64,000 nucleotides of DNA, taken from contig NC_091123.1 in NCBI RefSeq assembly GCF_040183065.1, forward strand, positions 105,862,321 to 105,926,320, in the 5' to 3' direction. Made by a program: the position numbers and the translations under genes. The stretch comes from Periplaneta americana. Taxonomy: Eukaryota > Arthropoda > Insecta > Blattodea > Blattidae. Below are positions 266 through 61,793 of the stretch, piece by piece (the first letter of the stretch is position 1; every line of letters begins with the position of its first letter). The notes beneath the pieces are model-generated. The model was not told where the DNA came from and made no database searches. It saw nothing but the letters and a program-made list of their open reading frames with translations.

Positions 266-1300
266 AAAGAAGTGTACCTAGCTATGGCTCTTGTTGTTTC
301 TGATAACAATGTTAATGATAAGTATCTTATCGTTTCAATAAATGTGGTGAGTTATGATCATGAGTAACTTTATATTAGTGTCATTCTTTAATTATTATGT
401 TGCATGCTAAGAGGTTATTTGTAGTTTTAATAATTGCAGTTTTCAGAAGTTCTCTGTGTTAATTCCAATTTCAAATTAATTTTTCTCAATAACCTAATTA
501 TTGGATTTTTTTGTTTAATTTTCGCCACTATCTTTCCTATATTTTACTCCTATTACTTACATACGTCGTCTCTCTTGAAATCACCTGGTGAGCACTGAAT
601 TACATAATTTCATATTAGGTTAGATTAGCTGTAAGGTAATTAAATTTGTGACGAAGTCAAAAAATTATTTATTTTTCTTCTGCCGATTAAATTCATCCGT
701 CTTTAGGTGCTTTGCTTTGGTTGCATCGAGTATAGCTTGTCATTTAATATCTGGGCTATATTTAGTGAAACTAATAAAACATAGGCCTACAGCTGTTATA
801 AAACGTAAAGTTTTGTGTGTATTTTACTTTTTACTTATTAACATAGTCTTAATATGTAACTCAATTCACAATAATACTAACTTCATCACAGTCATTTCCT
901 ACAACATCCGAGCCACGCCCCTTTGTTTTGACTAACCGAAACATGGCGGACTAATGTTCAATTGTCTTCAACTTTCTGAGGTCTTTGTCCTCTCTATAGT
1001 ATCTAACTCGTTGGTTTTGTCATGTTTCACCCACGTTACAAACTTGGAGGTAAAGGTTGTTTACTACAGATAGGGCCTACTTTCATTCTATATCTTATGG
1101 TATAGTAAATAGTTTTGCAACGTGTAGAGACTGGGAAAACAATTTTAAAAAATCATCCGAATCATACTCGTTCATTTTATAGGCAATCTTGCAGGCCGCA
1201 TTTAAAAGAACCTAGGAATATTAATATTTTCTTCAGTATATTTGCTAGGACTTCTTGTCATACTATGACAATTTTGCTTAGGTTATTCTTTTAAGCATTC
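266..1300. other. AT-rich stretch, nothing recognised
   Basis: No gene, RNA or transposon signature could be identified. A 95-codon open frame at 648-935 (+) has no recognisable motif and a composition typical of chance AT-rich ORFs. Confidence 0.5.
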
Positions 1301-1781
1301 CTTCTAGGAATAGCTTAAGTTTTAAATTTAGCGTACATAAGTTTAGATTAAGTTCCTAGCACGTATTTAACGAAATACTAGGATTTTCTACTTCAGTTTA
1401 ACTGATTTAAGCAAACGAAATTAAGGCAGCTAACGATTCTAATGTCCGTTATCACCACGCACACTTTGTTTTGGGCGCATAAGTTCATTACCGACGGTCG
1501 TTCAATTTTCTTCAAACATGGCGGCGCAATGACCACTCTATATGAGTGGTCATTGCGCCGCCATGTTTGAAGAAAATTGAACGACCGTCGGTAATGAACT
1601 TATGCGCCCAAAACAAAGTGTGCGTGGTGATAACGGACATTAGAATCGTCAGCTGCCTTAATTTCGTTTGCTTAAATCAGTTAAACTGAAGTAGAAAATC
1701 CTAGTATTTCGTTAAATACGTGCTAGGAACTTAATCTAAACTTATGTACGCTAAATTTAAAACTTAAGCTATTCCTAGAAG
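1301..1781. repeat. Near-perfect 481-bp palindrome (238-bp arms, 5-bp loop)
   Basis: The arms 1301-1538 and 1544-1781 are reverse complements with one mismatch that I can find and no indels. They are separated by a 5-nt loop. Each arm contains an ATGGCGGCG-type segment and no long ORF. This could be a foldback element, a recent inverted duplication or an assembly/sequencing snapback. Confidence 0.95.
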
Positions 1782-2776
1782 CTATTCTCTTTCTAACTCG
1801 TTGAGTTATATATTACAAACTCTTTGGCCCGTACCAACGCGTTAGAAAGAGAATTGGCCGCCCGTACACATTGAGCTCTATTGAGATCACTGGTTTCACA
1901 ATCCTAACACTGGTGACAGACTACATTCGCTAATCGCGATTAGCTCCGATCGCGATTACCGAAAATGTGGTGACACCACAGTCTAATATAGACAGTCACG
2001 ACACTCAATACTTACTAAATATGCAAACATAGATAGTTGCTCACCACCAGGATCGCTACTATCGCATCATCACAGACTCTCTCCCTAGCAGACGATAAAA
2101 TGTATTGTACTTTCGAAATCTTGTTCTTTTGAAGGAATTAAGACCTTCCTTCCACTATTGAAATATTAAATACATAAGGTTTATATATTTTTTTCATAAA
2201 ATATAGATTATATTCTATAAACTCAAATTCCTGGATCTTTCGGATGAAGGATAACTCTGACCTCTTTTTCTTACCATTTATAATGCTACAAACGTCTCCT
2301 TGTCGCATAGTATTATTGAAATTATTGTATTTTAGCTATTTACAGTTATTACAACCGATAACGAACATTTCACAGTTTACACAACTTTAAAAAAATGCGA
2401 AATATGGCACAGTCAATGCCTTTTCGATCCAAACCGTAATGTACCATATGTTCGAGTTTTCTATTTCAGTGTATGGAACTCAGTGAAATATAACTTTATT
2501 GCGTATCATTGCTAAGATTTAATTAGTGTAATGTGACCATAAGTTCCATTTCCTTCTTGTTGCATAATATGTTGCAGAAATAATTACAAAGCTGTGTTAT
2601 TTTAATGTCAAGAGAATTTTGCGTGTTAACACAATCTGTTTGCGTCAACATTTTAAGTTTAGAATGGAAGCTGTTTTAATAAAAAGAATTTATATTGTGA
2701 TTTTAATTTAGCACATCTACCTTCCTTAATTTTAGACAAAATAAATTACCATACCACTCCTATGAAATTAGCGTAC
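1782..2776. other. Non-coding stretch with a partial MITE
   Basis: Nothing is recognised here except the partial MITE at 1977-2076 and a short self-complementary segment near 1929-1960 (repeated TCGCGATTA). Confidence 0.5.
1977..2076 (+). repeat. Partial copy of the MITE seen whole at 3808-3990
   Basis: The segment starts with CACAGTCTA and shares the blocks around ATATGCAAACAT, GTTGCTCACCAC and GATCGCTA with the reverse complement of 3808-3990. The second half is missing. Confidence 0.75.
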
Positions 2777-3064
2777 AGTTACCCTTAAAAGGAATGAGAC
2801 GACTCTTGGTCGTCGGAAGTTAAAGTTCTACAGCGCGGTTCACTCGATATCGACGTAACGATACATAAGATGAGAAATACAGCAAGAATTTTTACGAGGA
2901 CCACAACAAGGACAAGGACCAAAATAAGAATCACGAAGAAGACAGCCATTTAAGGCCACGATTTTACAACATAGCTAGGGTCACAAGCTATCATTGCTTC
3001 TCTGTATCGAATGGCAAATGCCTGTTATGGGATCTACATTCTAGACTGCTGTTGTCACTGTCTT

Positions 3065-3134
3065 GTCTCAGTAGCTCATATAGTAGCGTATCGCTTCAAC
3101 TCCTTAACCGAAACGTCTCGTGTTCGATCCCAGG
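3065..3134 (+). repeat. tRNA-like segment inside R1 copy 1
   Basis: A pol III A-box-like TAGCTCATATAG and a B-box-like GTTCGATCCCA lie at tRNA spacing. The same segment occurs at 62705-62774. It is part of the repeat, so a tRNA-derived SINE head is more likely than a functional tRNA gene. Confidence 0.6.
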
Positions 3135-3337
3135 TTAAACTTTTTTTTTATTGAGATGTAATTAATTTCTTCAGAGTTCCTAGACCATCTAATTTGTCGA
3201 AAAATATGAATAATTTATGCCCAATTTCTGGGTCTTACAAGTGGGCTGAACCTCGTCAAAAAAATAAATCTTACTTGAAAGTTAAGAGTTTTTTTCCTCA
3301 AACAAAAATCACAAGAAACAAAAGGAGACCTGTCAAA

Positions 3338-4536
3338 TTAAAATCTTGTCCACATGCCATCAGCTTCTACTACAGCTCTAAGTCGGTCCGGCATGGATGT
3401 CACGAGATTGTGGAATAAATTCTAATCCCCGGCGAGATCTTTCCAGGTTTCAACAACTTGATCCCACAATTCGTCTCGATTTCGAGGGCGTCGGTGGGCA
3501 TAGGTGGCTATCCTTCTCTTTTTCAATTCTGCCCATAAATATTGATGACATCCAAATTAGGTGACTTCGGAGGCCAATTAATGATTTCGATCTCGGGTCT
3601 ACTTTGAAACCATCTTTGAATGCTTGCGGCATAGTGCACGGGATGGTTATCCTGTTGGAACAGAAATGCTCCTTCGGGAAAACGTTCTAGGGGCGGAAGG
3701 AAGGAATATATTTTCCAGAATGTGCTCGTAAGTTCCCGCATTAAACCGGCCATCGATGCGTTCTATAAAGCCAGGTCCATCGTAAGACATCCACCCCAAC
3801 ACGATATCACAGTCTACTATATACAGTCACGAAGCTTGAGTTTTGAGGGTGCTAGAAACAATAGACTGTGACGGTACTATTTTGCATTGCCTGTAATGAG
3901 GCGATATTAGCGATCATAGTGGTGAGCAACAATCTAATGTTTGCATATTTACTACGTATTGAGCTTCGCGACTGTATATACAAGACTGTGACAATATGCT
4001 AAAGCGCCCCGATCTTTCACGTCGGTGCACATAGCGCTGATCATGTGGGAGACCATCCTCACGATAGACACGGACAGGACTTCCGTAATCACTCGAGATG
4101 GTTGTTTCGTCGGAGAAAATTACATTTCTCCAATCGAAATCTACTCGATTGGTAACGAAAGCAAGACGGTCGACAGCTTGTGCTTCCCCCAATATTTTCA
4201 TTTGCGCAGCCCTCCGGCTCCTAATACCGCGGTTCCTCAACCTGCTGATCACAGTCTGTGAAGAACCGGGGAAGTTAGATGCTGCTCTTATTTCGTTAGC
4301 AGTCAGAAAGGGGTCCTGTCGAACTTCCTCGAATAAGAGAGCATCCTCTTCCAATGAATAAATCCGGGGACGCCCAGGAATATGGCGATTTTCGACCTCC
4401 CCTGAATTTTGGTAATGATGAACCCACCTCTCGGCTGTACTTCCAGAAACACCGACCAAACGGCCAGCAGATCTAGCCCCATATCCAGCCTCAACTAGAG
4501 CTATAATTGCTGTCTCATGTCACGTCGGTTCGCCAT
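3338..4536 (-). pseudogene. Broken Tc1/mariner-IS630 family transposase
   Basis: Reading from 4536 (start MANRRDMRQQ) the pieces give an N-terminal helix-turn-helix region (VGVSGSTAERWVHHYQNSGE, then GRPRIYSLEE), a second HTH-like part (FPGSSQTVISRLRNRGIRSR), and a first catalytic motif VIFSDET. After an interruption they give a second motif FQQDNHPVHYA and a third region WPPKSPNLDVIN. The C-terminal end is MPDRLRAVVEADGMWTRF before a TAA at 3338. That order and size match a Tc1-like transposase of about 340 residues. It is not functional: there is a frameshift near 4500, a 183-bp MITE inserted at 3808-3990, and further frame changes near 3530-3760. The third acidic residue expected in SPDLNPIE appears replaced. 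The other R1 copy keeps only the last 140 bp or so. Confidence 0.85.
3808..3990. mobile_element. 183-bp MITE inserted in the Tc1-like transposase
   Basis: Terminal inverted repeats of about 29 bp run CACAGTCTA...CAGTC at the left and GACTG...GACTGTG at the right. It interrupts the transposase reading frame between RFSI and the following GWMSYDGPGF region. The flanks contain ATAT on both sides, consistent with an AT-rich or TA target. A partial sibling lies at 1977-2076. Confidence 0.85.
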
Positions 4537-25470: not shown

Positions 25471-25657
25471 GCCCGTGTGCACCATTCTCGATCAAAATTT
25501 GACCAAAGTTAAGTCGGCACTTGACCGTCTTCAACGCCAATTTGCGGAGTATCAATCTCGATCAAAGTTAAACAAGCGAGTTGATGATGATCAAATTTGA
25601 TCACGGGTGTGGGACTGATTATCTTGAATTGAACATGGTCAAGTCGAGAAAACCAAA

Positions 25658-26779
25658 ATGGCGGCACGATTTGACGTACTTGATGGAATCGAAGATGAAA
25701 TGATGTATCTTGAACACGCAAATCACTGCGGAAATAATAGAATTGGTGTTATTGTAGAAAGAGGAGATCCTTTCGAAGATCTGGGAGACAGAAAATTTGA
25801 AGAGAGATTTCGACTGAGTAAAGAAACAGTGTGGTGGTTAGTGGACCAAATGAACGATAGGTTAGAGTTCCCTACCAACAGAAATAATCCCGTTTCTCCT
25901 ATGAACAGAGTTTTGGCAACTTTACGATCGTATGCCACAGGTGCTTTTAATATTGTTATCGGGGACACTGCTAATATACATCGAACAACAGTGCAGCGTA
26001 TCACCAGTGAAGTGTCGGAAATCATTGCATCGTTCTTTCCACGCTTCATTGTTTTTCCAGCAAGGGCCGATTTACAAAATGTAATGGATGGATTTCATCA
26101 AATAGATGGATTTCCGGGTGTGATAGGAACAATAGATTGTACACATATTAGAATTCAATCTCCTGGGGGAGACAACGCAGAACACTTCCGTAACAGGAAA
26201 GGTTATTTCTCTTTGAATTGTCAGACAATCAGTGATCACAATCTATTGATAAGGGATATTGTGGCAAGATGGGCAGGATCTGTGCATGATAGCACCATAT
26301 TTCGTAACTGTGCTCGTAGAGCACAATTTGAAAATGGTGAAATACCGCATGGGTATTTATTAGGAGATGGAGGTTATGCCTGCAAACCATATTTATTAAC
26401 TCCACTGTTAAATCCACTAACTCCAGCCGAACAGCGATATAATAGAGCACACATCAAAACAAGGAACACTGTAGAAAGGCAGTATGGTATATGGAAAAGA
26501 AGGTTTCCAATATTGTCAGTGGGTTTGAGATGTGGTCTGCAGAAAGCCATGACTGTAATAACGGCTACTGCAGTACTGCATAACATTGCCAGAAGCACCA
26601 GCAATGAAGAACCGCCTGAAGATCCACAGATGGTGCGACTACTAGAGGAGTTACGAGGTTTAAGAGGCCCTGACATTGATGATGATGAACCTGTTCCCCA
26701 AGGAGAGTTGATGCAGCGCAATGATGCTGTGCCTGGGAGAGCATTTCGTCAAGCTATAATTAACCAACATTTTCAATAA
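25658..26779 (+). CDS. PIF/Harbinger (HARBI1-like) transposase, apparently intact
   Basis: This DDE-type nuclease/integrase cuts and rejoins the element's ends in the nucleus. The 373-aa frame is open from the ATG at 25658 (Kozak-like AAAATGG) to TAA at 26779. That is close to the usual length of HARBI1-family proteins (about 350-400). Residues 45-60 hold the RFRLSKETVWWL segment typical of the N-terminal helical region. The DDE_4-type core shows GTIDCTHI (Asp160), SVHDSTIF (Asp211), LLGDGGY (236-240) and NTVERQYG (Glu273), in the right order and spacing, followed by RFPILS. The C-terminal tail is acidic. The convergent gene at 36472-33263 encodes its probable DNA-binding partner. No stop or frameshift was seen. 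A domesticated HARBI1 gene is an alternative, but the flanking terminal repeats favour a transposon. Confidence 0.95.
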   Translation: MAARFDVLDGIEDEMMYLEHANHCGNNRIGVIVERGDPFEDLGDRKFEERFRLSKETVWWLVDQMNDRLEFPTNRNNPVSPMNRVLATLRSYATGAFNIVIGDTANIHRTTVQRITSEVSEIIASFFPRFIVFPARADLQNVMDGFHQIDGFPGVIGTIDCTHIRIQSPGGDNAEHFRNRKGYFSLNCQTISDHNLLIRDIVARWAGSVHDSTIFRNCARRAQFENGEIPHGYLLGDGGYACKPYLLTPLLNPLTPAEQRYNRAHIKTRNTVERQYGIWKRRFPILSVGLRCGLQKAMTVITATAVLHNIARSTSNEEPPEDPQMVRLLEELRGLRGPDIDDDEPVPQGELMQRNDAVPGRAFRQAIINQHFQ

Positions 26780-36990: not shown

Positions 36991-37122
36991 TAAGAATCGC
37001 GTTGGTGATACTGATTAGTAATGAGAGAGTGAGATTGTGATGTTGATATGTAGAAGACAATTCTTATCCTGAAATTTCTCGTGTTTATTTATTTTAAGAG
37101 GCAGTTTGCTACGCTGGGAATC

Positions 37123-38229
37123 ATGCAATCAATTAGTGAAGTGTTGGAAGATGTAATAAAACCAAGAAGACCATCTGATAGCGCTTTTAAGCAGCAGCAA
37201 CTACCTGCTTGGCAACCGAACTTGACAGCCGGCACTGTTTTACCGATGTTTATTATGATTGGTATTGCGTTCATCCCTGTTGGAATAGGCTTACTCTATT
37301 TATCAGATAAGGTGATAGAAGTGGCAATAGATTATACAGATTGTAAAAACTCTGTTGGTAAAAAGTGTAGTGAAGTAATTGAAGAAAAATCTGATATCCA
37401 GTGTAACTGTACCATTCCATTTGTACTCGAACAAGATTTTAAATGTAATGTTTATATGTACTATGCGTTAACAAATTTTTACCAAAACCATAGAAGGTAT
37501 GTTAAATCGCGTGACGATGACCAGTTGCTTGGACGTCTAAGTCACAAACTATCATCAGACTGTGCCCCGTTTCAAGTAAATGAGGAAAAGAGCCCTATTG
37601 CACCATGTGGAGCTATTGCTAATTCTTTCTTCAGCGATGAATTGGTTATTGAGTTTGTAGACAGAGCAAATAATAGGAAGAGAGTGCCATTGCTGAGGAC
37701 AAATATTGCATGGCCATCTGACAAGCAAATAAAATTTCGAAATCCTCCTGGAAACTTAACCCAAGCTTTCAGTGGATTTGGAAAACCACAGTCGTGGAAG
37801 AAGAATATCTGGGAATTAGATACAGAAAACCCAGATAACAATGGCTTTCAAAATGAGGATTTAATTGTCTGGATGAGAACTGCTGCACTTCCAACTTTTC
37901 GCAAATTGTACCGCCATATTGACCACAGTAAAACAGGCTTCACAGATGGTCTTCCAAAAGGAAATTACTCGCTTTTTGTTGATTATTCTTATATGGTAAC
38001 CAAGTTTGAAGGTACGAAGAGAGTGATACTGTCAACAACATCTTTGCTAGGTGGGAAAAACCCATTTTTAGGAATTGTTTATATCATTGTGGGTTGTTGG
38101 TGTCTTCTACTTGGTATAATTTTTCTGTTTGTACACCTCAAGTGCAGTAAGAAGACTACAGAGATTATTAACATAAGTCCTCACACCCCTTATGAACAGT
38201 TCATCTATAGACACCATTATGAATTATGA
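37123..38229 (+). CDS. CDC50/TMEM30 family P4-ATPase flippase subunit
   Basis: This is the non-catalytic beta subunit that escorts P4-ATPase phospholipid flippases out of the ER and is needed for their activity at the plasma membrane and in endosomes. It has 368 residues from the ATG at 37123, typical for the family. The frame runs 14 codons further upstream, but from a GTG. Residues 15-31 hold the conserved cytosolic RRPSDSAFKQQQLPAWQP segment. Membrane segments lie at about 37-60 (GTVLPMFIMIGIAFIPVGIG) and 315-338. The ectodomain carries paired cysteines (Cys74, 82, 94, 96, 108, 147, 162) and N-glycosylation sequons at Asn95, 211 and 281. It also has the family blocks YMYYALTNFYQNHRRYVKSR, PCGAIANSFFSD and NYSLFVDYSYMV. 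No intron interrupts the coding sequence. TTATTTTAAG before 37101 could be an acceptor of a 5' UTR intron. No poly(A) tract marks it as a recent retrocopy. Confidence 0.97.
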   Translation: MQSISEVLEDVIKPRRPSDSAFKQQQLPAWQPNLTAGTVLPMFIMIGIAFIPVGIGLLYLSDKVIEVAIDYTDCKNSVGKKCSEVIEEKSDIQCNCTIPFVLEQDFKCNVYMYYALTNFYQNHRRYVKSRDDDQLLGRLSHKLSSDCAPFQVNEEKSPIAPCGAIANSFFSDELVIEFVDRANNRKRVPLLRTNIAWPSDKQIKFRNPPGNLTQAFSGFGKPQSWKKNIWELDTENPDNNGFQNEDLIVWMRTAALPTFRKLYRHIDHSKTGFTDGLPKGNYSLFVDYSYMVTKFEGTKRVILSTTSLLGGKNPFLGIVYIIVGCWCLLLGIIFLFVHLKCSKKTTEIINISPHTPYEQFIYRHHYEL

Positions 38230-54243: not shown

Positions 54244-54310
54244 GTTGGAAAAGCGCTTCACTTCACATTCCGCTTAAAAAAAAAAGCGCACGGGAAGAAA
54301 CGTAGTAGTC

Positions 54311-54566
54311 ATGAATGTTATAGCACGTTCAAATTATGTGACTTTTTCTAAGGGTAGTTTTGTGCTGTCATTTTGTCGTAATCACACCTCTGGTTCGGCA
54401 GAAAACATACAAAAGTTGATAAAAAATAATAAAGTAGTTGTTTTTATGAAGGGTGTACCAGAAGAACCAAGATGTGGATTTAGTAATGCAGTAGTACAGA
54501 TATTTAGAATGCATGGTGTAACTTACGATGCACATGATGTTCTGAAAGATGAAGAATTGCGACAAG
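54311..54566 (+). CDS. GLRX5: Mitochondrial monothiol glutaredoxin (GLRX5-type), exon 1
   Basis: The family moves [2Fe-2S] clusters from the ISCU scaffold to acceptors in the mitochondrial matrix. The exon encodes 85 residues: a basic, Ser/Phe-rich presequence (about 1-28), then [20 protein letters not shown], then [20 protein letters not shown], then [16 protein letters not shown]. Lys47 and the CGFS site (55-58, Cys55) are the cluster/glutathione-binding residues. The frame stays open past Gln85, but similarity stops at CAAG|GTGCGA, a splice donor splitting a Gly codon, as in the two-exon GLRX5 genes known elsewhere. Exon 2 should begin with an IK..(S/T)NWPTIPQV-like segment and was not found in the remaining 9.4 kb, so the intron probably extends beyond the window. 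A retrocopy is ruled out by the intron boundary. A truncated gene cannot be excluded. Confidence 0.9.
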
Positions 54567-54951
54567 GTGCGATTATTTTTATTATACTCTTACAGAAAAA
54601 TCTTAGATTTATCTAAGTAAGTTACTGTAGCCATCTAATTATTTACAATTGCCCTACCAAAGACAAATAGCACTTGCCTTGTAATTGAGTCATACATACC
54701 GTAAACAACGGATTAAAGTTGGAAAGTTGGCGTCAAAGTGGTCAGCTGAGAGCCGAAATCGCATGCCTTGCATGTACCAGTGAGCTTTTTGGTAGGTAGG
54801 CCTACATAGATAGAAAGCGAGTTTGTGTAATGCCGAGTATAAGTGACAGGTTGGGTTAGGTTAGTTCAGGTTTTTGGTGTGCTTCACATACACGCATTTT
54901 GGTCGGTATATATGCCTTTCCTTCATTTTACCCATTATTCCATTAGTCTTA

Positions 54952-57015: not shown

Positions 57016-57768
57016 TTTATATTATTTACAAAGCACATCACTTCATATCAACTATAATAATATTTACAAACCATAACAATTCATACTATTATCACATCAA
57101 TTTACATTACTTTCACAGTGTTTACTAAAAACACCCGAGACAAAACAAAGGACAAGCATGACACTATTGTGTTTACTGCTCTGTTTTACCAGTAACATGG
57201 CAGCGTAAACATGTGCAGACTGGTTTCAATTTTGGATAGAACATCAGTGCTCTGTGTGAGTCTAGTATACTATATAACGTCTTTGTAAAAATAATGTAAT
57301 TATATTGATAAACTTACTGGAAAATGTTGAAATATTGCATGAAACCTGGTGATGCAGATAACCTAAAAACCCATGAAACAGGTGACGAGTTGGAGGTTTG
57401 ATCTGTGATAATAAACCTAAATCGGTGAAAAATGTAATAAAATATTGCTTCGTAAATTTGGCAACAGAATGGGAGCAGGATAACGATCTAGTAAGCAGCA
57501 AGTATTTTAGTGACACTTCACAATAGCTGTAGTCATATGTTAGGACTGGCTTGGTAATGGCAATATTATTGATAAATTAACTTAATTTCTGGATAAGTTT
57601 GTTTGGTTGATAAGTATACTTAACAACCAGTTAATCTAAATTGCATAACATAACAAAAGCTTTCGACCAAGTTAGAAATCCAGGTGTTATTCCCCTAAAT
57701 TTCGTTTTATGTATTAGATATTACACTGATTGGAACACTTGAATTCAATTAATTGTTTTGCTAATTAT
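57016..57768. other. Non-coding gap between the THAP relic and the P-like element
   Basis: 57150-57240 is GC-richer and could hold the promoter or 5' UTR of the THAP relic (minus strand). Nothing else was seen. Confidence 0.4.
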
Positions 57769-57775
57769 GTACTAG

Positions 57776-60700
57776 CTAGACCTACATATATTAAAGAGAC
57801 CTGTTCATTTGTGGGTCAAACAATGGATCAACGTGTCTGCGTCGGAGTCCCAGTTTTCGCCGCTATGAGCACTAGTGTACAGACCTTGCTGACTCTTCTA
57901 ATGCAAGCGATTGCGTTGGAAATAATACTGAGACTCGATATTATACACAATTTTAAACATATTACACATTACTCAATGGAACATATTGCTATATTGTACA
58001 CCCAGAAAAAAATAATGTGGCTAATTGATGAAAAAAATTATAGTTATAATAATGTAAATTAAAATAAAATTATTACACTTCAGACTGGCGGCTCCCAACC
58101 GCCTGCTATTGGGACAGATACTGCAAATTAAACATATCCTACTTCTAAGTTCAGTGAAGTATAAATATAGTACTTAAGGTAAATACTTTACAGATTGCCA
58201 AGTATCTGAATTGAAGGTGGTTGGGGACCACTGATTTAGATTTACAGAGTTAATGCTTACCGGTAACTATGTTCAATCCGCAGTCTATATCATTCCATCT
58301 TGAACTTATAGACATCTGATGCAACAATTTACACTTTGTGAACTTTCCTCCAAAGTGGTTTTGTCTTTAAACCAGTGTTCTTAGTTTTGAGATTTTCTGC
58401 AATAGTTACTGATGTAAGGTCTAAGAAACTTATTTAGTAACAAGTTGCACAATTTCTTTACATGATCATCATCTGTCTTACTATACTGCATTTTTGGATT
58501 TTGACACAGACTACTTTTCAAGTACTGTCTTCAAGACGAGAGATCTGGGCTTAGGATGCACAAGAGGCACTCCTACTCGCACAGCAGCCACAACAATGAT
58601 ACTGACAAAATCCACTGTAGGATAAGAGTACCCGCCTCTGTTAACATTTTTTAAAAGTGCCATTGCAGGGTTGTTATCTTGAATGGACTCGAACATGACT
58701 TGACATTCTGAACATGTTATATTGTCTTTTATTTTTCGAATCAAGTAGCTGGAAATAAGAGAGAGAGAGAGTAGCTGATTGTAATGTCGTTTCCAAGAAG
58801 CTAGCATCTGTATTCTTTATTCTTTTCAGGTAGGGATTACAGCAACATTTGCAGGTCATCATTATCATTTTCATGCTTATCATATGCAATAACTCTTTTT
58901 TTGGATGGTGTCTGTGTCATAATTCATCTGCTCCTACAGTACCAGTGACGTTTGTATTAGAAGATGCTGAAATAATTCCAGTAACAAGAATCTTATGGAT
59001 TGCCTGCCTAACCACTACAGCATTCGTCTGGTCATTACTTCCACCTAATCTTCTAATGGAGCTGAACAAAATTTCTATCTGGCCACTAGAAAATGTTCTG
59101 GTAAGGACGAAATGATATCCAGATTGCAATAGATAACTAATGCACTTAGCAGTGGAGATAGAAGTTAAAACAAGAGCCTCATAAGTCTCATTACTAAGAA
59201 ATTGCCTTCTGGGATAAATGCACGATTTCTTCCAAGAACTTAAATATTCAATGAACTCATGTTCCAACCAATGAAGCCTCGAATCCTCAGTTTCAAAGAA
59301 ATGCATGGAATTCTCATCACTGGAATGAATGTGATAGGTCGTATTCTTGATATTATGCATCCCAAACCATTTCCTCATATATTCGAGGAACTCAGTAGTT
59401 CCCTTACAATTTTCAAATCGAGCTACACCAAATTTCTTTCCATATTCTTCGAGAGTGTGAAGAGTTGCCGCCACTTCATGAGAAAATATCTGAACCGCCC
59501 TTTCGGCATTCATCTTTTCAAAATTGCTTGGAGATAAATGCTTTTCTGTAAGGAAGCGAACTGTTTTCCATACGTCGTCTTTCTGGATGTCATAAATCAT
59601 TCTGAGATACTTAGGGCAGATTTCCTTCCCTTTATTCATAACGGACTGCTTACCATCAAGAAATATATTTCTCACATTTTTGATAATATGACAATAGTCA
59701 TAGAATAAAAATAGTGGTCTTTCAGGATCACAGGGATGGGTTATTTGTGGCATAGGTTTCCCTTCACAACGAAGGCCAAACATTTTTACATTGGTTGAAT
59801 GATTGTCGGTAACAATCCAAATTATTTTAAACCCGGCATCTTCAACCTGTTCTTTCACTTTCAAAGTGAGTTCTATCAGTTCACTTCCTGTTATATTACC
59901 TGTGAAAAAGTATTGGACTGGTATTACAAAATGGAATGCCAAACCTTGAAATACAAAGCAGGTGAGTCTAGTCGCTAAGTCAATTTGTTTTTCATTAGCT
60001 TTCTCCAACCCATCCATTTCCACAGTTCCGATTACAATATCTTGAATTCTCAGGTACTGAACTTCTGGCCTAATTGACATGTTGTCAATAATGATGGAAC
60101 CAAAAGCCCCTTCGTCCCCTACTGTTCACCTAACCGTTGAGCTACCAGGTCCCCAATTCTTCCTTGGTCGCGAATCCAGTATACCGCTTTAAGGTCGATC
60201 TACTTGGCAATGTAAGTAATGGCACACTACGAACAAATTTGTACATGCTTGTAGATCTGCTCTGCCATAAAACGCAATATCGAATGCTCAGTTTGCTCCA
60301 ATAGTGTTTAGTTTTTCCAAATGCACAAACCTGCTCTTTCAAAAATAAAGCGTGTGTATTGCCCTTTTCTACTTCAGCCTCAAGTTGTGCTATATTCGTA
60401 GATTCAATATCATTAGCAGCATTATATTGGTTTTTCAATTTCTTTATTGCAGCTCTCAGTTGCCCCACTTTACATTTTAGCCTCCTGTTTCTACAATTTA
60501 GGTTTAGAATTTATCCCTTTTTTGAAGAAGCCTATAATTAACATCAGTTTGTACAGCAATATGAGTTTTAGACACTGTGTACACACCTTCAATGCTATCA
60601 TTTACATCGGCGTATTCTTCTACATTGCTATTAGGTTTTTTCCTTGAGATAGAACTTGTCTGAAATTTCTGTCTTCTTTTCAGAACTCTTCTTGGTGTTG

Positions 60701-61295
60701 TATGTGTCCCTTGAAACAGAGAAGGAATAGTGCTGGTTTTAAGTATTCTTTTCTTTGTGTCACATCTATAATCTTCACTGAGAAAGTGTAAGTTACAGAC
60801 TACTCAATGATCTGACGGCTGCCAAAGCTTTCCTTCCTCTCCTATAATCAAAAATACTTTTTATTACTGATCTGGTTTATTTCAATTTGATGAAATTAAT
60901 AAACACCGCCAATCGATACATAAAATGCATTGGTAGAACAGCACTCCTTTTGGATAGGTTTAGAATTCTACTGAATTATAATATTGTGGACTTACCTTGT
61001 CTCAAAATAACTTTCGGCCATTTCTGTCTTAATTCTTAATCACACAGAAATTCGTGAAAAGAAATATTCTTGTCTTTTCCTTTTTTACTAGGACACAAAG
61101 GAACACAGTTCACCATTGCAAACACACAACTTATTTCTAACAACAAAGAGTGAGCAGGGCAAAGTTAATAGATAGGCAAGCAGACAATTCACGAGTAGGT
61201 CTGTACACTAGCGCTCAGTGGTCAAAGAACGAACTACCTGGGCAGACACACTTTCAAAGCAAATGAACAGGTCTCTTTAATATATGTAGGTCTAG
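57776..61295 (-). mobile_element. P-element-like DNA transposon, 3520 bp
   Basis: Perfect 36-bp terminal inverted repeats (CTAGACCTACATATATTAAA... and its inverse) lie at 57776-57811 and 61260-61295. A subterminal inverted block GAGC(A/G)CTAGTGTACAGACCT lies at about 57866-57886 and 61191-61212. A 7-bp duplication GTACTAG flanks the element (57769-57775 and 61296-61302). The single gene reads minus. The layout (THAP transposase, TIRs of about 31 bp plus subterminal repeats, short target duplication of about 8 bp, length of about 3 kb) is that of the P superfamily. The element lies in the inferred glutaredoxin intron. Confidence 0.95.
58511..61116 (-). pseudogene. P-element/THAP9-type transposase, multi-exon, inactivated
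   Basis: Exon 1 (61116-60996): MVNCVPLCPSKKGKDKNISF, HEFLCD, stop, ELRQKWPKVILRQ, with donor CAAG|GTAAGT. Exon 2 (from 60841 after ATTATAG, in phase): GEEGKLWQPSDH, stop, VVCNLHFLSEDYRCDTKKRI, LKTSTIPSLF. Together these make a full THAP domain (C4, C8, Trp33, C-x2-H, final P). Next are a coiled coil (LRAAIKKLKNQYNAAND...), the WSKLSIRYCVLWQSRSTSMY region, and a 387-codon frame (60080-58917). That frame holds the RNase H-like core: IIIDNMSIRPEVQYL, IVTDNHSTNVKMFGL, FLFYDYCHIIKNVRNI, and RTFSSGQIEILFSSIRRLGG plus SNDQTNAVVVRQ, as in P/THAP9 proteins. The C-terminal part (58807-58511) has SYLIRKIKDNITCSECQ and NRGGYSYP. The THAP domain has two in-frame stops, there are frame changes near 60510 and 60110, and the link near 58850 is unclear. 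Confidence 0.9.
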
Positions 61296-61302
61296 GTACT
61301 AG

Positions 61303-61793
61303 TTAACATTGGCCAGACCGCCCACCATCTTCCCAAAACAGAGGTCCAGGGCACATATTTTCCCCGTTAGAGTGTAAAGAGGTTGACAATATGTCAGTCA
61401 TAAGAAAATTTAATTAAAATGTATGTATGTATTGTATATATTTAGTAATATACTATATGCCATAGACCTCTACTGTGGGAAGATGGCCTGTCTGATGTTT
61501 ACTACATAATACCATTTTTTCCTATATAATTAATAACCAAATAATCCTCGTATCTTTTTAAAAATTTTAACACGTTACAGCATCTCTCTGAAGTGATTGT
61601 AAAAAGAAATTGAGGATATGATCGTCTTCAGGGTGGTTTGTTGAACTCTAATTTTCGTAGGACTTTATGATTTATTGAAGGTAGCACAGTAACAGTTTTT
61701 GAAGTTTACAAGCTTTATCTGTGACTGTCAGAACACATTTTAACCATTCACTAAAATTTTAGTCAATTATTCATGTACTGTTGTGAGTAAAAC
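61303..61793. other. Non-coding, nothing recognised
   Basis: AT-rich, with no gene or repeat class assigned. Confidence 0.5.

Follow-up and report, generated by a model that had tools for sequence, protein, structure and literature searches.

The window, by which the whole analysed stretch of 64,000 nucleotides from Periplaneta americana is meant, carries at 57776-61295 what is very probably a full-length, decayed copy of a low-copy cut-and-paste transposon of the P superfamily, the gene of which decayed in place. The initial annotation had described a structurally complete P-superfamily element in a blattodean, and this description is supported by the ends, the target duplication and the P-type transposase core. 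It had also taken fresh-looking ends over a dead gene as a sign of movement in trans; this conclusion is not upheld by the comparison with other copies of the same family, which is referred to as family A in the following.

Structure of the element and its transposase gene

The inverted terminal ends match over 36 of 36 bp, exactly as first annotated. A scan of the window with the first 26 bp of the end, at up to three mismatches, hits only these two sites, and two matches were obtained in none of 100 shuffles. The element is exactly flanked by the 7-bp target duplication GTACTAG (7/7), which had been recognized as intact. An 8-bp duplication for this family was rejected, because no match was found at 8 bp when a shift of the boundary was tried. 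The element thus falls outside a strict definition of P elements of the Drosophila/Anopheles type, which demands 8 bp, and within the P superfamily, for which a target duplication of 7 or 8 bp is characteristic. The subterminal inverted repeats that had been reported are also present and match at 20 of 21 positions (95%), so that both terminal and subterminal inverted repeats of the superfamily are found. The features of the element and its insertion site are as follows.

57748..61419: dispersed repeat split by the element (outer match limits, approximate)
57769..57775: target-site duplication GTACTAG, left copy (7/7 against 61296-61302)
57776..57811, plus strand: left terminal inverted repeat, 36 bp
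57866..57886, plus strand: left subterminal inverted repeat
58514..58816, minus strand: probable C-terminal coding piece (SSYLIRKIKDN..C..C) in a frame other than that of the core; no Pfam match
58920..60125, minus strand: open 402-aa core with RNase H, GTP-binding insertion and RNase H; D, D, E and D(2)H present
60145..60510, minus strand: linker between THAP and core, in a frame that differs from both neighbours; no Pfam match
60507..60841, minus strand: start of exon 2 with the second THAP half; stop at 60806-60804; Pfam THAP 0.0066, under the cut-off
60842..60995, minus strand: putative intron (GT..AG) within the THAP domain, as read from the sequence
60996..61116, minus strand: exon 1 with the start codon at 61116 and the first THAP half; stop at 61038-61036; this piece has no Pfam THAP match
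61197..61217, minus strand: right subterminal inverted repeat
61260..61295, minus strand: right terminal inverted repeat, 36 bp
61296..61302: target-site duplication GTACTAG, right copy

The minus strand encodes a transposase of P type, which is disrupted by the two stops and by at least two frame changes (near 60505 and near 60130), in agreement with the damage that had been annotated. The core has Pfam matches to the TNP-like RNaseH_N domain (6.4e-21) and to the GTP-binding insertion domain GBD (PF21788; 1.5e-17, over the cut-off), the latter being a further character of the superfamily; the match to RNaseH_C (0.0093) is under its cut-off. A comparison of the core with the Drosophila P transposase 6p5a gave a further match (7.1e-14). 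Drosophila D303 and E531 align with D and E in the window core, and the first catalytic Asp was placed by motif, the stretch of 6p5a that was used beginning after that residue. YDYCH represents the superfamily's D(2)H motif, a signature defined in the available part of PMC8230255; with this motif and with D, D and E in place, the RNase H of the window element is typical of the P superfamily.

The THAP domain is split by the putative intron and interrupted by the stops, and Pfam recognizes its second half below the cut-off and its first half not at all. THAP halves in separate frames are also present in L013, a locus of the related family C, and the domain lies within one frame in L073 of family G. 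A peptide resembling the C-terminal piece of the window element, ASYLIRTVKDNLNCENC, ends an open frame in the family B locus L014.

The joined flanks of the element were compared with the genome, giving 40 rows out of 337 candidates, two of which are the window itself. Among the 38 other rows, 25 begin left of the insertion point and pass it, although in five cases they extend only three bases beyond it; the remaining 13 are entirely to its right. Five of the 25 crossing rows were fetched (L085-L089) and all five continue across the insertion point. The window element thus interrupts a dispersed repeat for which paralogous empty sites exist. Three bases of the 7-bp target at 57769-57775 are absent from all five fetched sites. 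As they are present in both target duplications, these bases are probably older than the insertion, and one guess is that they may be the footprint of an older excision. A foldback with 33-nt arms of 82% complementarity at 61325-61486 overlaps the same dispersed repeat.

Four further features were observed elsewhere in the window. A 383-aa open frame at 25628-26776 (plus strand) encodes a DDE_Tnp_4 transposase (Pfam 2.7e-33), presumably of PIF/Harbinger type, and represents an element or a domesticated gene. An uninterrupted 391-aa frame of the CDC50/LEM3 family at 37054-38226 (plus strand; Pfam 1.2e-94) may have arisen as a retrocopy or may be a gene with a single large exon. Additionally, there is a partial glutaredoxin gene at 54278-54613 (plus strand; profile positions 1-40 of 60, Pfam 5.2e-11) and a fragment of a Tc1/mariner-type transposase at 3917-4519 (minus strand; HTH_Tnp_Tc3_2, 5e-9).

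Copies of family A and decay of the window gene

The genome comprises 3,231,669,367 bases in 91 contigs (C numbers denote contigs). The published P. americana VgR primers of PMC7143859 both match it exactly, the forward primer at a single place and the reverse primer in the same locus, spanning 93 bp end to end, which supports P. americana as the host. The genome was searched with the first 125 bp (left) and the last 125 bp (right) of the element. At least 13 left-end places and at least 12 right-end places were found, which correspond to at least 19 places in total, and the concern that no other copies might have the same ends is thereby removed. Six elements were taken as seen at both ends (C7, C5, C8, C15, C2 and C1). 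The nearest long relative of the window copy is located on C8 at 130237114-130243291, with 91% identity over 2447 aligned positions. In the 11 trios including C8, the private branch of the window copy amounts to 1.8-4.0%, for example 75/2071 private differences in the trio with C5 as third member and 7/398 in that with C9d. In the other trios, its private share ranges from 0/192 (C11/C9d) to 5.8% (C16/C2), and it reaches 7.0-9.6% when both partners are taken from C5, C15, C2, C6, C4 and C2b. Compared with the majority of the other copies, the window copy differs at 106 of 1920 positions (5.5%).

At 1.8-3.6% change per site, the computed chance of finding the 36-bp ends intact is 0.27-0.07, and that of finding both the ends and the 7/7 duplication intact is 0.21-0.04. 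Perfect ends are thus not rare at the estimated age of the window copy. Its ends are, by eye, the best preserved among the four copies with both tips, and this does not prove freshness. The low chance (0.21-0.04) of perfect ends combined with a 7/7 duplication makes it possible that the insertion is younger than estimated.

At most nine of the 18 other places are readable at each of the two stop positions. The exon-1 stop of the window copy is present in none of the nine other copies readable there, and the exon-2 stop in none of seven. The differences between the window copy and C8 are distributed over the three codon positions without bias (24/17/21, p=0.54, and 2/7/4, p=0.24). Those between the window copy and the family B locus L010 show a strong excess at third positions (89/63/205, p=1.8e-21). 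In the long term, the window lineage was under selection for protein function; differences acquired since about the time of the C8 split look neutral, which is consistent with a gene still alive, or almost, at the time of landing.

It is unlikely that the window copy was moved recently by a transposase made elsewhere when its own gene was already dead. Perfect ends and an intact duplication around a broken gene would be expected from such a movement, family B elements have the same outermost 18 bp of ends as family A, and private stops would also be expected if a one-copy lineage had moved after the death of its gene. Movement in trans is, moreover, real among the relatives. Copies on C2, C15, C6 and C5 have an internal deletion of about 1.05 kb in the catalytic region with an identical junction at a TCTG microhomology, which is slightly worn in C6, and their right flanks differ. 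These four deleted copies of family A did move in trans, and this happened long ago, because they are only 84-85% identical to the window copy. Against a recent event of this kind in the window copy itself stand the absence of its two stops from all other copies readable there, the lack of codon-position bias in its differences from C8, and ends that are unremarkable at its age. Matching ends over a dead gene should thus not, on their own, be taken for recent movement in trans.

Decay in place is the simplest reading for the window copy. In the corresponding sequence of events, the THAP transposase would have bound at the subterminal sites, cleaved the DNA at the 36-bp ends and transferred these to the target with a 7-bp stagger. 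On landing, the gene would have worked or nearly so, and the copy would have been mutating in place ever since.

P-superfamily families and their target duplications

A search with the transposase core resulted in at least 105 rows, with 103 of 2308 first-look candidates scored. After merging of row pieces, these represent at least about 100 places of related transposases, which are located on all of C1-C17 plus C84. A frame of at least 700 aa without a stop inside the match is found in 13 of the 105 rows. The loci that were read fall into at least nine groups.

Group A: window
Group B: 14 of the 29 loci L010-L038; 86-98% mutual identity
Group C: L013, L018, L019
Group D: L026, L029-L031, L033-L037
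Group E: L027
Group F: L032, L062 and others
Group G: L073, L074
Group G2: L075
Group H: L038

In family G, L073 and L074 share 99.3% identity over 3202 bp and have 38-bp ends with one mismatch in L073. Each has a 778-aa open core frame, and the THAP exon of L073 is open as well. Of 2334 coding sites, 15 are different between the two, and these fall on the three codon positions as 10/1/4. The high identity, the open frames and the pattern of coding differences suggest, at the level of sequence, that family G was mobile recently. The initial annotation had considered that an active relative of the window element may exist or have existed recently. Recently mobile relatives probably do exist, but the clearest pair, L073 and L074, belongs to a different family, the core of which is only 38-39% identical to that of the window family.

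In eight comparisons within families, copies of family B differ by 3.3-4.4% and copies of family F by 1.2-2.0%, in both cases without codon-position bias. The family F loci L032 and L062 are 97.1% identical over 3430 bp and each have a single open frame at 592-2820 (plus strand), which encodes 733 aa when read from its first Met. A complete THAP domain (7.2e-18) and a match to the P-element HTH are present in L032; element ends were looked for in L032 and L062 and were not found. In family B, L010 encodes an 812-aa open P-type transposase frame (1051-3486, minus strand) in which Gly replaces the third catalytic acid. Thus, an open frame need not mean a working enzyme, and no P-type copy among the loci read is singled out as functional.

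The length of the target duplication differs among the families. In family A, it is 7 bp in all four copies with both tips readable, with 7/7 matches in the window and 6/7 each in C8, C15 and C5 as read by eye, the right tip of C5 being shifted by one base. Duplications of 7 bp were also found in family D, in five of the six loci with both tips (nine loci were tried, and L029 with two mismatches at 7 bp was counted as a miss), and in the one locus of family E. Duplications of 8 bp are present in family B (L014/L078 8/8, L021/L080 8/8 and L011/L079 7/8, read by eye), in both loci of family G and in the one of family G2. The family B loci L010, the left end of which is truncated, L016, L017, L024 and L025 were left out of the count; in L077, L083, L082 and L081, which were fetched for the last four, no right end was found at up to three mismatches. 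Family C was also left out, the duplication of L013 being ambiguous (7 or 9 bp, by eye). In family G, the loose tip motif also paired internally, with three extra rows in L073 and one in L074, and the ends used are those also found by self-comparison.

In a tree of 13 rows, families D, E, F, G, G2 and H form one supported clade, which excludes A, B and C. The Drosophila row sits on a very long branch and is placed with little certainty. By a manual count, the duplication length must have changed at least twice on this tree. Families A and B have identical outermost 18 bp of their ends and share 62% of core residues.

The 7-bp duplication raises the question whether the window element belongs to Galileo, a P-superfamily element of Drosophila, instead of representing a lineage of its own. 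According to the available part of PMC4168063, Galileo has mostly 7-bp duplications with the similar consensus GTANTAC, which GTACTAG fits except for the last base. Galileo was compared by description only, which ascribes long foldback-like terminal repeats to it. In contrast, the window element has ends of 36 bp and no such repeats, and 8 bp are used by a family with the same outer ends. An assignment to Galileo is accordingly improbable. There is next to no chance that the gene is a single-copy domesticated THAP9-like host gene placed by accident between inverted repeats: such genes occur in vertebrates and in Ciona (PMC7776569, in part), but the ends of the window element recur at 19 or more places, target duplications and empty paralogous sites exist, the window transposase frame is broken, and the gene is a member of a group of multi-copy families bounded by transposon ends, so that a single-copy THAP9 orthologue without such ends, a possibility raised at the outset, is ruled out by copy number and ends.

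Relation to known P elements

As in the Drosophila P element (6p5a), the RNase H of the window element is split by a GTP-binding insertion, and the residues corresponding to D303 and E531 as well as the D(2)H motif are kept, with an Asp in the motif where D230 is expected; the Drosophila catalytic residues are named in the available parts of PMC7776569 and PMC8230255. Inverted repeats, both terminal and subterminal, are found in the two elements, and each has derivatives with internal deletions, as described for Drosophila in part of PMC7776569. In contrast, identity in the aligned core is only 21%, and the Drosophila element is given in the source text with 31-bp ends and an 8-bp duplication instead of 36 bp and 7 bp. 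The zebrafish THAP9/P-like element also combines a THAP9-type transposase with ends and internally deleted copies, but it has 13-bp ends, an 8-bp duplication and one full-length copy, as far as the same excerpt of PMC7776569 describes it.

In Anopheles gambiae, nine diverged P subfamilies and short non-autonomous derivatives (P-MITEs) have been reported from one insect genome (available text of PMC1562414). The variety of at least nine groups in P. americana is comparable, but the Anopheles duplications are of 8 bp, whereas those of P. americana are of 7 or 8 bp depending on the family.

The initial annotation had regarded a P element in a blattodean as worth describing. The accessible part of PMC6327564, in which a cockroach, Blattella germanica, and a termite, Zootermopsis nevadensis, are also discussed, lists the P element superfamily among those found in all arthropod species investigated, and such an element in a blattodean is therefore not new in kind. 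The available text of PMC9689775 treats P. americana transposons and does not contain the terms 'P element' or 'P superfamily'. Among the papers listed in a literature search of titles and the starts of abstracts, which covered few subscription journals and had Repbase outside its range, none was seen to describe P-superfamily families in P. americana.

On its own, the window element is ordinary. Its value is that it opens the way to a genome with some 100 scored places of P-type transposases, the loci read falling into at least nine groups, with deleted derivatives and with staggers of both 7 and 8 bp. Lability of the duplication length within the superfamily is already known, because Galileo duplications are mostly of 7 bp and some are of 8 bp (PMC4168063, as available). 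We tentatively propose, as a possibility slightly less likely than not, that P. americana harbours a large, still partly mobile P-superfamily set in which the stagger has changed two or more times between 7 and 8 bp, one such change separating the close families A (7 bp) and B (8 bp) with their common outermost 18 bp. If this is true, a single genome would serve as a natural experiment for the question of what determines the strand-transfer spacing of P-type transposases.
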